The position numbers and the translations under genes are program-made. Positions 7,338 through 17,136 of a DNA stretch of 36,308 nucleotides are shown piece after piece. Each line of letters begins with the position of its first letter. The first letter of the stretch is position 1. Under the pieces are notes generated by a model. That model ran no database searches. It was not told the origin of the DNA and saw nothing but the letters and a program-made list of their open reading frames with translations. The stretch is taken from contig JAQBOS010000323.1 in NCBI GenBank assembly GCA_028287925.1, positions 1 through 36,308 on the forward strand, given 5' to 3'. The stretch comes from Mucilaginibacter sp. (GTDB lineage Bacteria > Bacteroidota > Bacteroidia > Sphingobacteriales > Sphingobacteriaceae).

Positions 7338-7358
7338 GTCATAAGCATTGTTTATTAC

Positions 7359-7394
7359 AAACGGCCGGCCTGTAATTTACGGGCCGGCCGTTTT
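7359..7394 (+). terminator. Strong intrinsic terminator after M61 peptidase
   Basis: AAACGGCCGGCCTGTAA pairs with TTACGGGCCGGCCGTTT. The stem is about 16-17 bp with one G-U wobble and a very short loop, and it ends in TTTT. It starts 21 bp after the peptidase stop codon. Confidence 0.9.
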
Positions 7395-7564
7395 GGTATA
7401 ATCTATTGTCATTTCATGATAATTATCGTGTAATGATGATATAGAGTTAATTTTAACTCTCGATTATTTGATTAATGTATTGATATTCAATTATTTAAAT
7501 AATTGATAGCATTATTGATCTCTTCAATCGTCATTATAATTAAACACATTTAAATTATCTAACG

Positions 7565-7681
7565 ATGGAAAACTTAATTTACATTTTTACCAGGACGATA
7601 TTAATTGCATGCATATTGATTATTGGCTACCTGATTGCCATTCCCGAAAAGGAAACCACTGATAGATGGGATATTTGGTAG
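7565..7681 (+). CDS. Candidate 38-aa single-pass membrane protein
   Basis: A short ORF, absent from the ORF track, starts at an ATG in the otherwise gene-free spacer between the M61 terminator and the kinase-like outer-membrane protein. It encodes a hydrophobic segment (about residues 9-25) and a charged tail ending DRWDIW. It ends at TAG 7681. The composition fits a small membrane protein, but no family is recognised and there is no Shine-Dalgarno sequence (common in this phylum). It could be chance coding in AT-rich DNA. Confidence 0.4.
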   Translation: MENLIYIFTRTILIACILIIGYLIAIPEKETTDRWDIW

Positions 7682-7794
7682 CAGAATCACCTTATTGTTA
7701 TTATATTTTAATTATTCTGTTAAACAAATCGCTGTTTTTGCTTATTTTGTTATCAATTACAAATTAATCAGAATATTGACCTTACAGATACCCT

Positions 7795-10392
7795 ATGTCA
7801 CTATCTTTTAATACGCCAGGCAAGCCCCTAACAATTTTGAAATATTTATTCATTATTACTGTTGGCTTTATTAGTTCGAAAGGATTCTCCCAGGTAAAAA
7901 CTGATAGCATAAATGTAGCGCTTGAACCTGAGTATGATAAAGTGACCGGTGCACATCGTTTTCTTTTAGGAGAAAATTACAGGAAGCTATGGTCTACAAA
8001 AGTTACACTGAAAGTATTTCACCTGTCAAAGGAAAAAGGCGGTTTAAAGATCTTACAGCCCGGTGGCGGCATGCAAACCAAATCGCTCAGGCTGCAGGAC
8101 TCAAGCGGGCAGGAGTGGGTATTGCGCACCATACAAAAGTACCCTGAAAAGGTATTACCAAAGGACCTGCGACAAACTATAGCTAAAGATATTGTACAGG
8201 ACCAGATCTCCGCAGAGCATCCTTTTGCAGCATTAACCGTTCCTCCTTTGGCGCAGGCGCTGGGTATTCCGCATGCGCATCCACAAGTAGTTTATGTTCC
8301 GGACGACCCTGAATTGGGTAAATATCGTAAAGACTATGCCAACCAGGTTTTTTTATTTGAGGAAAGAGAACCGTTAAACGTTGAGAAAACAGATAATGTA
8401 GGTAAGGTACAAGGCAAGCTGCAGGCAGATAATGATAACCGGGTTGACCAGAAACTTGTTTTAAGAGCACGTTTGCTTGACTTTTTGCTTGGAGACTGGG
8501 ATCGGCATGAAGATCAATGGCGTTTTGAGCGGGTAAAAGACAGTACAGGGATCTTTTATGAGCCAGTACCCCGTGACAGGGACCAGGTTTATAATAATGC
8601 ATACGGTGCTTTGCCCTGGCTAGCCTCAAGGCACCTGTTTATGGCCAAGTTTCAAAGTTATGGCGATCATATCCGCTCAATTAACCGCTGGAATTTGAAT
8701 GGTCGTAATTTTGACCGTTATTTTTTGAATGAGTTGAATGAGCAGGACTGGGAAACCCAGATCGCTTATGTGCAAAGCAAACTTACCGATCAGGTAATAA
8801 CAGATGCGGTAAAACAAATGCCGGCAAATATCTACAAGCTGAGCGGAGCAGAAATTACGGGCAAGCTTATAGCCCGCAGAAATATACTGAAACAACAGGC
8901 TTTAAAATACTACCACTTTCTTTCGGCAACTGTAGAGATTCCCACATCAGAAAGCAGGGAGCATTTTGATATTACTAACCAATCCGACGGTAAAGTAGCC
9001 GTAATCATAAGCAACCTTAAAAAGAGTGGAAAGCTTGAACGGACTACTTATCAGCGCATATTTGATCCTGCGGTTACCAATGAAATAAGGCTTTACGGTA
9101 TTGATGGTAAAGATGTTTTTGCCGTACACGGTAATGAGCATTCGCCAATAACAATAAGAATGGTAGGCGGTAAGGGTGAGGATACCTTTTTAATAGATAG
9201 TAATATAACCGGAAAGGGAAACAGGTATGTTTATGATCGTTCAGACAAAAAGAACAACCTGCCTAAAAGCTCACAAGCCCACTTGCGTGTCTCAACAGAT
9301 ACCGGGGTTAACAACTACCATGCATTGGGTTATAAGTATAATTTTCTTCAGCCACTAATATTAGGTAGTTATAACAGTGATTATGGCTTACAGCTGATGA
9401 CTGACTTTATTTATCAAAAACAGGGTTTCAGGAAAGACCCTTATGCTTTCAGACAAAGTTTGGTGGTTAATTACGGATTTGGGGCAAACTCCTTATTGTT
9501 AGACTATACCGGCGAATTTAAGCAGGCTATAGGAAAGAGCGATCTTTGGGTTAATATATTATCAAAGGGACCAAACTATCAAAGCTACTTTTTTGGCCTC
9601 GGTAACGAAACACAGTATGTAAACAAAGGGGAGAAGGAAAGAAAATATTACCGTAACGTTTATAATTTTCTAAATGCTGATGTAAGAATAAAACACACCT
9701 ACGGCAGTTGGACAGCAAGCGGAGGTGTTATAGCGCAATATTATAATGGCGATGAAGACAGTAATCATAACCGGTTTTTAAATGATTATGATGCGTTGCA
9801 TCCCGATCAAAAAGTATTTACCACGCAAGCCAATGCGGGGCTTATTGCAGGCCTTGTTCTGGATACTCGCGACAAGGGTATAATACCACATAATGGCATG
9901 TTGTGGAATACAACCATAACGGGCTTAAAGGGACTGAACTCCGATTCGCACAGCTATGGCCAGGTAACAACTGATTTTAGCTTTTTTATAAACCCGGATA
10001 AGGACTCAATATTTGTTATTGGCAACCGGATTGGCGGGGGTACAACCATAGGGAATGCTTCTTATTACCAGCAATTGCAGCTTGGGGGCATTCAAAATTT
10101 AAGAGGATTCTACAGCGGCAGGTTTACAGGCAAAACTATGGCTTATGACAACCTCACCTTACGCCTTAAATTATTTGATTACGCCTCCTACATATTGCCC
10201 GGGGCATTCGGTATAGTAGGCTTTAATGATATCGGCAGGGTTTGGATCCCCGGCGAATCATCAAACCAGTGGCATGATGGTTACGGCGGCGGGTTTTACC
10301 TCATCCCGGCACAATTGATACTTGTACAGGCTGTTGTAGGTTTTTCAAAGGATGGAGCTTACCCGTATATTTCGGCAGGGTTCAGATTTTAA
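7795..10392 (+). CDS. Outer-membrane protein: atypical kinase-like N-domain plus Omp85/BamA-like barrel
   Basis: This 865-aa protein has a signal peptide (ends GFSQ, about residue 33). Residues about 85-300 resemble the atypical kinase fold of the HipA/Fam20/CotH type. SLRLQDSSGQEWVLRTIQKY suggests the ATP-site strands with a Lys. LLDFLLGDWDRHEDQWRF (228-244) resembles a catalytic loop of the DRHxxN kind. YEPVPRDRDQVY (255-266) could be the metal-binding Asp segment. Residues about 425-470 (IRLYGIDGKDVFAV, GGKGEDTFLID) look like an RTX-like or parallel-beta segment. Residues about 500-865 are rich in alternating beta strands and end in SAGFRF, a typical terminal barrel strand, with LGGIQNLRGFYSGRF matching the Omp85 lid-loop region. 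The barrel call is firm; the kinase-like call is my inference and no activity is implied. It is monocistronic. Confidence 0.75.
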   Translation: MSLSFNTPGKPLTILKYLFIITVGFISSKGFSQVKTDSINVALEPEYDKVTGAHRFLLGENYRKLWSTKVTLKVFHLSKEKGGLKILQPGGGMQTKSLRLQDSSGQEWVLRTIQKYPEKVLPKDLRQTIAKDIVQDQISAEHPFAALTVPPLAQALGIPHAHPQVVYVPDDPELGKYRKDYANQVFLFEEREPLNVEKTDNVGKVQGKLQADNDNRVDQKLVLRARLLDFLLGDWDRHEDQWRFERVKDSTGIFYEPVPRDRDQVYNNAYGALPWLASRHLFMAKFQSYGDHIRSINRWNLNGRNFDRYFLNELNEQDWETQIAYVQSKLTDQVITDAVKQMPANIYKLSGAEITGKLIARRNILKQQALKYYHFLSATVEIPTSESREHFDITNQSDGKVAVIISNLKKSGKLERTTYQRIFDPAVTNEIRLYGIDGKDVFAVHGNEHSPITIRMVGGKGEDTFLIDSNITGKGNRYVYDRSDKKNNLPKSSQAHLRVSTDTGVNNYHALGYKYNFLQPLILGSYNSDYGLQLMTDFIYQKQGFRKDPYAFRQSLVVNYGFGANSLLLDYTGEFKQAIGKSDLWVNILSKGPNYQSYFFGLGNETQYVNKGEKERKYYRNVYNFLNADVRIKHTYGSWTASGGVIAQYYNGDEDSNHNRFLNDYDALHPDQKVFTTQANAGLIAGLVLDTRDKGIIPHNGMLWNTTITGLKGLNSDSHSYGQVTTDFSFFINPDKDSIFVIGNRIGGGTTIGNASYYQQLQLGGIQNLRGFYSGRFTGKTMAYDNLTLRLKLFDYASYILPGAFGIVGFNDIGRVWIPGESSNQWHDGYGGGFYLIPAQLILVQAVVGFSKDGAYPYISAGFRF

Positions 10393-13658: not shown

Positions 13659-13780
13659 GTAACGGGGTAGTTAGAATGTTTTGCAGATTGATTGTTTATT
13701 TTTACAGTTATTAAGCAAGTTACCACTATTTAAATCAACCACAAATAAAAGCTAATTTGCCTTTCAAAATATCCGGCATT

Positions 13781-15094
13781 ATGAATTATCAGCAACTACT
13801 TGAACAGGCACAGGATTATGTGCTAACCTATTATAAAGATCATGACACCTCGAGCCTTATTTACCATAACCTGGATCACACTAAAGACGTTGTAGCGGCC
13901 GGCATCAAAATAGCCAATCATTATCAGCTAAGCGACGATGATTTTTTTATTGTTTTGGCCGCAGTTTGGTTTCATGACCTGGGGTATATGGTTGATATTG
14001 CCACTCATGAAGAAAAAGGCGCTGAAATAGCCGCCAAATTTTTGGAGGAACATCACGTTAATAAAAAACATATCGACCTGGTTGTAAATTGTATAATGGC
14101 TACCAGGATGCCGCAGGCACCTAAAACATTACTCGAAGAGATTGTTTGCGATGCGGACCTGTTTCATTTGGGCACCGATGATTTTAAAGAGAAGGACAAA
14201 CTTTTATTAAAAGAAATTAACCTGATGCACCATACCGATCTGAATAAACAGCAGTGGCGGGAAAAAACTATCAAATTTTTAGAGAGCCACAGTTACCATA
14301 CCGATTATTGTAAAGTGTTACTTAATGATACAAAGGAGAAAAACCTGGAAGAATTAAAAAAGAAGTGGGAGAAGGAAGAGAAGGAGCAGCAAAAAGAGGA
14401 AGAAAAGAAACGGGAAAAAGAAGAAAAGAAATTACATAAGCAGGAAACGAAGATTGACGCAACCATTATTGAAGATCATGAACATGCTGCCGAAGTAACT
14501 GAAGAGAAGTTTGAAGGCAAAAAGAAGAAAGACAAGGATAAAGATGAAAGGCCTGAAAAGGGAATTGAAACCATGTTCAGGATCAGTTCAAGCAATCACC
14601 AGCGTTTAAGCGATATGGCTGATAAAAAGGCTCATATTATGATAACCGTCAACTCTATTATTTTATCGGCAATTATCAGTTTGGTGCTGCGCCGTTTAAA
14701 TGAGTATGGCTATTTGATAATTCCATCGTTTATTTTACTTACGGTGAGCCTTTTAGCTATGACTTTTTCAATACTGTCAACCCGCCCATCAATACCAAAT
14801 GGTGTTTTTACAAAGGCAGACCTTGAGGAGAAAAAAGTTAACCTGCTGTTTTTTGGTAATTTTTATAAAATGAAGCTGGAAGATTTTAACCATGGGATGC
14901 AAATGATGATGGAGGACAAGGATTTTTTATACGGCAGCCTAATAAAAGACTTGTACGCACAAGGCGTGGTTTTGGGTCGTAAATATCATTTGCTTCGGAT
15001 AGCTTATAATATTTTCATGTTTGGCCTTATTGTAGCCGTTGTTGCATTTATTATTGCATCGGCATTTTTTAGTTATAGCCCTGTTGTTAAATAA
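13781..15094 (+). CDS. HD-domain phosphohydrolase fused to Pycsar-effector-type membrane domain (PycTM/DUF5706)
   Basis: I start this at the ATG 13781 (437 aa); the track start at 13757 is a TTG. Residues about 5-180 are an HD domain: IYHNLDHTKDVV (His29, His33), WFHDLGY (His65-Asp66), His76 and CDADLF (Asp124 region) give a plausible metal site. A highly charged coiled coil follows (about 185-260). From about 262 to the end is a PycTM-like domain: ADKKAHIMITVNSIILS, two central membrane segments, NLLFFGNFYKM, DLYAQGVVLGRKYHLLR and a last membrane segment (about 410-430). PycTM domains are membrane-perturbing effectors of cyclic-pyrimidine (Pycsar) defence, but no cyclase is nearby. The stop codon overlaps the ppk1 start (TAATG), so translation is probably coupled. 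Confidence 0.88.
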   Translation: MNYQQLLEQAQDYVLTYYKDHDTSSLIYHNLDHTKDVVAAGIKIANHYQLSDDDFFIVLAAVWFHDLGYMVDIATHEEKGAEIAAKFLEEHHVNKKHIDLVVNCIMATRMPQAPKTLLEEIVCDADLFHLGTDDFKEKDKLLLKEINLMHHTDLNKQQWREKTIKFLESHSYHTDYCKVLLNDTKEKNLEELKKKWEKEEKEQQKEEEKKREKEEKKLHKQETKIDATIIEDHEHAAEVTEEKFEGKKKKDKDKDERPEKGIETMFRISSSNHQRLSDMADKKAHIMITVNSIILSAIISLVLRRLNEYGYLIIPSFILLTVSLLAMTFSILSTRPSIPNGVFTKADLEEKKVNLLFFGNFYKMKLEDFNHGMQMMMEDKDFLYGSLIKDLYAQGVVLGRKYHLLRIAYNIFMFGLIVAVVAFIIASAFFSYSPVVK

Positions 15095-17136
15095 TGGAAC
15101 AATACCGTTTTTTCAACCGTGATTTAAGCTGGCTCTCTTTTAATGGACGTGTAATGGAGGAGGCTGCTAATGATAAAGTTCCGCTTTTGGAGCGGATAAA
15201 GTTCCTCAGTATTTTTTCGTCAAACCTGGATGAATTTTACCGGGTACGGATGCCTGTATTACGGGCATTACAAAAGATAGGTGAAAAGGATAATAACAAT
15301 ATAAGCGTTGAGGAACAAAAAGGGATTTTAAAACAGGCGCTGGATCTGATAAATACCCAGCAACAACGATTTGGCGCCATATTAAAAGATCAGCTGATAC
15401 CGCGGCTAAAGAGCTGCAATGTTCGCCTGTTGTATAATGATGCCTTTCCGGATGCGGTAAAAAAGGTGACCACCGAGTACTTTTTATCGGAAGTACTGGC
15501 TTTTTTACAGCCTGTAGCTTTAGATAACGGGAATAAGTTTTTCCCTGAGAATAACAAGCTGTATTTTGTTGTTAATTTGGAAGAAGCCGCTGGAGCCGAA
15601 AAGTTAATTATGCTTAATATCCCATCCGATGAGCTTCCCCGCTTTTTTACTGTAAAAGCTGACGAGGAGACTTATATTGCCTTTTTAGATGATATAATAA
15701 GAAATAACCTGGATAAGGTATTTAAGGATGCCAGGATAAAGGGATGCTATAGCATTAAGGTAACGCGCGACGCTGAGCTTGACCTGCAGGATGAATATCC
15801 TGGAGACCTTTCGGACGAGATTGAGAAACAATTGAAGAAAAGGGATCAGGGCCTTGCAACCCGCTTTTTACATCAGTCGGGGATTCCGTTGCGTACCATG
15901 CAGCTGATAACCGCACAGCTTGACCTGCAAAACGCCAGTGCAACCGAAGGGGGCGTTTATCATAACCTTAGGGATTTCTTCTCGCTGCCTTTAAAATCGC
16001 CGGGAACTTCCTACGAAGATTGGCCTGCTGTAAATCCTGTCGGGTTAGATGAAGCTGTTTCTGTATCATCAATTATTGCAGATAAGGACATGATCATTCA
16101 TACGCCATATCAAAGCTATCATTCAGTATTAAGATTTTTTAATGAAGCTGCTATTAATCCTGATGTTGAGGAGATCTGTATTTCACTTTACCGGGTTGCC
16201 AGTAATTCGCGTATTGTTAATGCGTTGATAAGCGCTGCTAAAAACGGTAAAAGCGTGCAGGTAATGGTTGAGTTAAAGGCCCGGTTTGATGAAGCCAATA
16301 ACCTGAAGTGGGCCAAAAAGATGAAGGACGCCGGTGTTAAAATTATATACAGCGTAACGGCCCTTAAAGTACACGCAAAAATAGCTATAGTAAAAACACG
16401 AAAAGACGGTCGGATAGTTTACTCAGGTTTGCTGGCTACAGGAAATTTTAACGAAACTACGGCTAAGTTTTATACCGATCATATCCTTTTTACTTCAAAT
16501 CCTGACCTGTTACGTGAGATGGAACTGGTGTTTTTGTTTTTGAGCAAACGGGAAAAGCCATCGCCTGATAATCAAATTGATTTTAAACATTTACTGGTTG
16601 CCCGGTTTAACTTGCAAAGTAAATTTATTGAATTGATTGACCGGGAAATTGTCTTTGCCAAAGCGGGAAAGCCTGCAGCCATCACCATAAAAATGAATAA
16701 CCTGGAAGAACGGGTGCTGATCAATAAACTATACGAAGCATCACAGGCCGGGGTGAAAATTGAAATGATAGTGCGAAGCATTTGTTGCCTGATACCGGGT
16801 ATTGCGGGGATGAGTGAGAATATTACCATAAGGCGGATTGTTGACCGCTACCTTGAACATGGCCGGGTTTTTATTTTTAATAATGATGGGAACAAAGAAG
16901 TGTTTTTAGGTTCGGCCGATTGGATGAACAGGAACATCTACCACCGGATTGAAGTTTGTTTCCCTGTGTATGATGAGGCTGTGAAAAACGAGATCATTCA
17001 GATTGTTGCCCTGCAATTGAAGGATAATATACAAGCTGTATCGCTTAATGATGCGCTTGAAAATGTTCCGGTGCCTAAAGGTGAACCGGTTATACAGGCG
17101 CAAAGGGAAATCTACAGGTTGTTATCGGGCGTGTAA
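15094..17136 (+). CDS. ppk1: Polyphosphate kinase 1
   Basis: This 680-aa protein has the normal PPK1 length. It starts with the family's N-domain signature (FNRDLSWLSFNGRVMEEA) and continues with SNLDEFYRVRMP. The catalytic region has ALKVHAKIAIV with His427, the expected phospho-accepting histidine, then YSGLLATGNFNETTAKFYTDH. RYLEHGRVFIF has the second conserved histidine (His589). The enzyme reversibly makes polyphosphate from ATP. Its start codon shares one base with the stop of the HD-PycTM gene, so the two are cotranscribed and probably translationally coupled. A perfect 21-bp inverted repeat follows the stop and could end transcription. Confidence 0.97.
   Translation: MEQYRFFNRDLSWLSFNGRVMEEAANDKVPLLERIKFLSIFSSNLDEFYRVRMPVLRALQKIGEKDNNNISVEEQKGILKQALDLINTQQQRFGAILKDQLIPRLKSCNVRLLYNDAFPDAVKKVTTEYFLSEVLAFLQPVALDNGNKFFPENNKLYFVVNLEEAAGAEKLIMLNIPSDELPRFFTVKADEETYIAFLDDIIRNNLDKVFKDARIKGCYSIKVTRDAELDLQDEYPGDLSDEIEKQLKKRDQGLATRFLHQSGIPLRTMQLITAQLDLQNASATEGGVYHNLRDFFSLPLKSPGTSYEDWPAVNPVGLDEAVSVSSIIADKDMIIHTPYQSYHSVLRFFNEAAINPDVEEICISLYRVASNSRIVNALISAAKNGKSVQVMVELKARFDEANNLKWAKKMKDAGVKIIYSVTALKVHAKIAIVKTRKDGRIVYSGLLATGNFNETTAKFYTDHILFTSNPDLLREMELVFLFLSKREKPSPDNQIDFKHLLVARFNLQSKFIELIDREIVFAKAGKPAAITIKMNNLEERVLINKLYEASQAGVKIEMIVRSICCLIPGIAGMSENITIRRIVDRYLEHGRVFIFNNDGNKEVFLGSADWMNRNIYHRIEVCFPVYDEAVKNEIIQIVALQLKDNIQAVSLNDALENVPVPKGEPVIQAQREIYRLLSGV

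Follow-up and report, generated by a model that had tools for sequence, protein, structure and literature searches.

A kinase-like domain fused to an Omp85-type barrel in Bacteroidota, a probable extracytoplasmic phosphotransferase of the outer membrane

The Mucilaginibacter open reading frame at 7795-10392 (+ strand) of the window, which is the whole stretch of 36,308 nucleotides that was analysed, encodes an 865 amino acid protein in which an export signal, a kinase fold with a conserved and jointly lost active site, and an Omp85 barrel were established computationally. The protein is probably an extracytoplasmic phosphotransferase of the kinase-like (PKL) type, which its 16-strand Omp85 barrel anchors in the outer membrane, facing the periplasm.

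Little is known about extracytoplasmic phosphorylation in Gram-negative bacteria, the periplasm being regarded as free of ATP. A kinase-like family which occurs in over a third of the sampled Bacteroidota, is anchored in the outer membrane and is often fused to a phosphatase makes the question testable. It would give the Omp85 superfamily a new N-terminal domain, it would be the first functional link for the adjoining chromosomal PycTM/HD genes, and it may represent an overlooked on/off switching of molecules in the cell envelope.

Structure of the exported kinase-like domain

All motifs quoted in an earlier sequence-only reading of this DNA were present in the reading frame: the signal peptide, IQK115Y, GDWD236RHEDQWRF, PRD261RD263QVY (about 25 residues downstream of the former), GGKGEDTF (458-465) and the C-terminal SAGFRF. 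The Q33 following the signal peptide fits the Bacteroidetes Q-rule for type I signal peptidase (PMC10653852). In the Pfam and NCBIfam searches with the 865 amino acid protein nothing was recognised except the C-terminal Omp85 region. The protein was divided as follows.

7795..7890, + strand: signal peptide, residues 1-32, then Q33 (sequence; helix 13-26 in the model)
7894..8928, + strand: kinase-like (PKL) domain, residues 34-378, of no Pfam or NCBIfam family (AlphaFold2, Foldseek)
8929..9294, + strand: all-beta module, residues 379-500, with GxxGxD turns at 435-440 and 458-463 (strands in the model)
9343..10389, + strand: Omp85-type 16-strand beta-barrel, residues 517-865 (PF01103, 42.3 bits, cut-off 24)

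Residues 34-500 were modelled by AlphaFold2 with 64 relatives and gave a two-lobed kinase-like fold (pLDDT 93.4, pTM 0.93), so the kinase-like fold that had been proposed from the letters, with structure prediction as its test, was confidently predicted. When the model was compared with the PDB by Foldseek, all 11 matches at E<=0.001 were kinases, headed by the Helicobacter pylori CtkA (3akl, 2.2e-6), then Rio2 (8.2e-6), PI4KIIalpha (2.9e-5) and the HipA-type 7vkb, while the TM-scores against the solved kinases were modest (TMt up to 0.54). The profile-profile scores obtained with hhalign, which do not depend on the model, were 47.7 for CotH and 34.0 for HipA; 14 unrelated neighbour families used as controls did not exceed 20.7, nor did reversed or shuffled profiles exceed 19.5. 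The catalytic loop and the DxD segment were in register, and in the CotH alignment GDWDRHEDQW...VPRDRDQVY was placed on GNWD...IPyDyDntFG.

The sequence search of the solved structures gave nothing significant with either the single protein or the profile, and the CtkA catalytic loop appeared only at E 0.47. Over the kinase-like domain none of the 64 members matched any Pfam model above cut-off; the CotH model PF08757 gave one weak match (one of 64 members at E 0.022, the window copy not at all), and no Pfam match to the HipA model PF07804 was obtained. The domain combines the features by which the PKL superfamily is recognised, namely a two-lobed fold together with conservation of the catalytic Asp, the metal ligand and the residues that anchor the nucleotide, and within the superfamily it is closest to the branch of CotH and HipA/CtkA/PI4K-II.

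The nearest relative is M. phenanthrenivorans, at 84% over the kinase-like domain. The genome from which the window comes holds a second copy of the kinase-like gene (G000:C116:14-805), 67-70% identical and cut by the contig end.

Conservation of the active site

Two samples were used. The first consisted of 64 aligned relatives from unselected genomes, picked so as to take in divergent copies. The extended set (n=157) contains 80 named loci that were located by motif pattern and is thus enriched for intact copies; its stand-alone rows include a few fragments. The first sample is the fairer one, despite this preference for divergent copies. The sites considered were the following.

8062..8070, + strand: glycine-rich turn G90-G92 between beta1 and beta2 (70-89% conserved; strands 85-90 and 97-101)
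8125..8139, + strand: R111 of beta3 and K115, candidate phosphate-anchoring residues (R111 in 147/157, K115 in 151/157)
8200..8202, + strand: acidic D136 of alpha-C (92% in the first sample; helix 129-140)
8359..8361, + strand: hinge glutamate E189 in LFEERE (98%)
8494..8520, + strand: catalytic loop D234-W-D-R-H-x-x-Q-W242 (conservation; aligned with CotH GNWD and the HipA loops)
8569..8592, + strand: metal-site segment P259-R-D261-R-D263-Q-V-Y266 (conservation; aligned with CotH IPyDyDntFG)

In the first sample W242 and G271 were conserved in 100% of the relatives, R237 in 97%, K115 in 94%, Q241 in 92%, D236 and D261 in 89% each, D263 in 86% and H238 in 81%, so the quoted motifs characterise the family as a whole and are not accidental. 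The lysine of IQKY had been assigned to a strand pair; K115 is indeed conserved, but in the model it lies just past beta3 (107-112). It is R111 that lies within beta3, where kinases classically have their ATP-anchoring lysine; R111 is conserved in 87% of the first sample. Degenerate copies lose R111 more often than K115, and R111 tracks the loss of the motifs better.

DRH was found in 52 of the 64 relatives, and all these 52 also had the DxD (D261xD263); among the 12 copies without DRH, 9 lacked the DxD as well (Fisher 8e-9, relatedness ignored). Free variation of the DRH and DRD residues, which the sequence-only reading had named as evidence against itself, was therefore not observed: the residues are near-invariant and are jointly lost in a few clades. 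In the extended set, the active site was intact in every one of the 78 phosphoesterase-fused copies; kinase+barrel copies were intact in 51 of 62 cases, and stand-alone rows in 15 of 17. The degenerate copies have kept W242, G271 and R361 and have lost the glycine turn, R111, D136 and the DxD to varying degrees; in the degenerate clade D136 is replaced by A, E or K.

Since DRH is lost in about one fifth of the first sample (12/64), some members of the family function without catalysis of the usual kind. The term "degenerate pseudokinase", which had been offered for the window protein, suits a minority of its relatives and not the window copy. More generally, the domain might be a non-catalytic binding module, a pseudokinase, which would detect a nucleotide or a phosphorylated ligand and would gate or recruit clients to an Omp85 insertase or translocase. 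Copies that persist with intact structural residues after the loss of active-site residues (11/62 kinase+barrel, 2/17 stand-alone) would suit such a role, as would the usual function of Omp85 barrels in inserting or exporting proteins and the expected lack of periplasmic ATP. We regard this reading as doubtful, since most copies, including every phosphoesterase-fused one, keep the full active-site set, the losses are joint, as when selection for catalysis is lifted in particular clades, and in the stand-alone forms there is no barrel that could be gated.

One degenerate clade (L047, L057, L058, L063) has GDGDR... and, instead of DRD, RHY, and has its own conserved neighbours, an HD-domain and a radical-SAM-like gene. 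In another genome three kinase-like genes, apparently for lipoproteins, stand in tandem (L042, 5129-10148); one of them has SRR for DRH and keeps the DxD.

With R111 for the usual lysine and Q241 for the usual asparagine, the chemistry on ATP may differ from that of most kinases. Proteins with a kinase fold can catalyse transfers other than phosphotransfer, and these two unusual residues would also suit a kinase-fold enzyme of another type, such as a SelO-like AMPylase or a different non-kinase transferase, or an enzyme that runs the reaction in reverse. However, no specific resemblance to SelO or Fic was found and the best relatives (CotH, CtkA, Rio2, PI4K-II) are kinases, which makes this alternative quite improbable in comparison with a phosphotransferase.

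The beta module and the Omp85 barrel

In the two GxxGxD turns of the beta module D440 is 98% and D463 73% conserved. The RTX-like GGKGEDTF segment had suggested calcium dependence. This suggestion did not hold up: no Pfam match to the RTX (hemolysin calcium-binding) family was found at E<=1, there are just two single GxxGxD turns, and the segment is missing in some stand-alone members, the 423 amino acid stand-alone relatives lacking the whole module. The calcium reading of the turns is therefore weak.

The Omp85-type barrel claimed for the C-terminus was confirmed by the PF01103 match, the number of strands, the fold matches and the L6 motif:

10102..10110, + strand: R770-G-F772, the Omp85 L6 motif, in the strand 11-12 loop 754-780 (G771 invariant)

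In the full-length model (pLDDT 87.9, pTM 0.81) the barrel strands number 16 and are placed between residues 517 and 863. Foldseek matched the model with the BamA and Sam50 barrels, with E values down to 5e-10 and a TMt of at most 0.68. The long loop carries L-R-G-F, and its G764 and G765 are at least 90% conserved. No POTRA domain was matched in the window protein; in the model that place is occupied by the kinase-like fold, a large compact unit ahead of the barrel.

We infer that the domain is periplasmic rather than surface-exposed. Omp85-patatin fusions export their passenger (PMC4104836), and by analogy the barrel could carry the N-terminal domain to the cell surface, in the manner of the type Vd protein PlpD, to act outside the cell. 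This is decidedly unlikely here, since the window protein, unlike PlpD, has no POTRA domain, its kinase-like domain folds as a compact unit before the barrel, and the stand-alone relatives are lipoproteins or N-terminally anchored, which suits the periplasm.

Distribution and architectures of the family

The domain was found in 114 of the 297 sampled Bacteroidota genomes, in three architectures: kinase+barrel, as in the window; metallophosphoesterase (PF00149)+kinase+barrel; and stand-alone proteins, which are lipoproteins with a lipobox, N-terminally membrane-anchored or plain secreted. The last two architectures, and the gene linkage described below, go beyond what the sequence-only reading had noticed. 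PF00149 is absent from the window copy and present in relatives such as L036. About 13 architecture changes were counted on a quick tree with several weak forks. The window clade nests among phosphoesterase-bearing sequences, so that the phosphoesterase domain was probably lost in the window lineage. Both barrel forms adjoin in some Mucilaginibacter and Chitinophagaceae relatives (L077, L078, L090, L092).

In Pontibacter ramchanderi (L087, 7917-10496) a kinase ORF (420 amino acids) and a barrel ORF (435 amino acids) are separated by about 15 bases, which may reflect a frameshift, a sequencing error or a true split. At three loci (L066, 4017-5798; L067, 4811-6889; L068, 4805-6940) the Omp85 proteins retain no more than traces of the kinase or beta module and may be intermediates of domain loss. 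Plasmid-borne spread was considered and set aside, the plasmid tblastn having given only 5 Bacteroidota records.

Gene neighbourhood

Between the M61 peptidase gene and the kinase-like gene (7338-7794), a terminator-like element, a GC-rich inverted repeat with a T run behind it, lies just past the former. In the 458 bases upstream of the kinase-like gene no TAnnTTTG Bacteroidetes promoter was found. The gene seems to be transcribed alone. A PADLOC scan matched the kinase-like protein to no defence family, so the protein does not itself count among the known ones of defence. Two genes further downstream were of interest.

13757..15094, + strand: PycTM-domain protein of the HD-PycTM family (PF18967, 1.1e-32)
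15094..17136, + strand: polyphosphate kinase PPK1 (four PP_kinase domains)

These two genes share one base, which suggests co-translation; between them and the kinase-like gene lie GAF and PAP2 genes in convergent orientation. No HD domain was seen at E<=1 in the PycTM protein of the window; one was found in the related PycTM protein of L072. The kinase-like and PycTM genes occurred together in 94 genomes, the kinase-like gene only in 17, PycTM only in 4 and neither in 182, i.e. 94 of 98 genomes with PycTM also had the kinase-like gene (Fisher 7e-54, relatedness ignored). Both were on the same contig in 83 genomes, and 71 of these 83 pairs were at most 6 kb apart. Their orientation and order vary between genomes, the gene orders being rearranged, which argues for selection and against frozen synteny.

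PycC-like class III cyclases were present at 29 of 140 loci, 24 of which also had HD/PycTM; PycTM and the PycC-like cyclase at these 24 loci form a chromosomal Pycsar-like module. PPK1 lay no farther than 20 kb from the kinase-like gene in at least 24 of the 56 genomes having both among the matches listed, and PPK1 is found in 273 of 297 genomes overall. An SdiA-regulated-type lipoprotein, PAP2 and SixA also recur near the kinase-like gene.

Proposed mechanism

In the model that we favour, the kinase-like domain takes the place of the POTRA domains on the barrel and would transfer phosphate to an envelope molecule. D236 would serve as the catalytic base; metal would be bound by Q241 with D261 and D263, and phosphate would be anchored by R111 and K115 together with D136. 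For an Omp85 client as the substrate, which the sequence-only reading had suggested, the analysis gave evidence in neither direction. The D228Q variant of the Bacillus subtilis CotH is catalytically inactive (PMC7821199), and D236 may be the equivalent of D228. In the longer relatives the fused calcineurin-like phosphoesterase could remove phosphate from the same pool, giving an on/off pair. The barrel would mainly be an anchor, because the members without barrel are lipoproteins or membrane-anchored.

Regulation may come through the neighbour genes: the linkage to PycTM/HD, the PycC-like cyclase and PPK1/SixA suggests that the enzyme probably responds to signals of phosphate or cyclic nucleotides. 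Conceivable donors are scarce ATP, polyphosphate or another phosphoanhydride, polyphosphate being a candidate because of the linkage to PPK1. PPK1 makes polyphosphate in the cytoplasm, and it is present in most of the genomes anyway, so the polyphosphate-donor idea stays speculative. The more elaborate proposal of an outer-membrane kinase-phosphatase switch, run by the Pycsar-like cyclase/PycTM module with a non-ATP donor, plausibly PPK1-linked polyphosphate, is rather improbable as a whole. In the open-access literature that was searched, no report linking the kinase-like family to polyphosphate was found.

Comparison with known systems

Heinz and Lithgow (2014) described an Omp85 "Metallo" subfamily with an N-terminal PF00149, called metalloprotease (PMC4104836); the main text of that paper makes no use of the word kinase, and Pfam names PF00149 calcineurin-like phosphoesterase. 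This architecture matches our longer relatives, the window copy being without PF00149. Omp85-phosphoesterase fusions have thus been known since 2014, while within the same literature scope neither a report of a kinase-Omp85 fusion nor a published recognition of the kinase-like region was found. The Riemerella metallophosphoesterase, described in the papers on it as a T9SS effector, was taken as a different protein.

HipA/CtkA/HipT (PF07804) provide the best structural matches (3akl, 7vkb) and have the D-x-H catalytic loop in common with the family, but they are cytoplasmic toxin-antitoxin kinases with HipB partners and their profile score was weaker. In the present data no HipB-like gene came to notice. 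PI4K type II and Rio2 match in fold only; they are not extracytoplasmic themselves, and no sequence relationship was detected. The barrel shares its 16 strands and the L6 RGF motif with BamA, TamA and PlpD, but in the window protein it is preceded by the kinase-like domain and not by POTRA. CotH (PF08757), which comprises spore-coat or secreted atypical kinases distantly related to Fam20C, has the kinase-like fold in common, and its pattern GxWD...NN / IPyDyDntFG is in register with GDWDRHxDQW / IPRDRDQAF of the present family, which differs from it by having DRH for D-x-Y, by the Omp85 fusion and by the phosphoesterase of its relatives.
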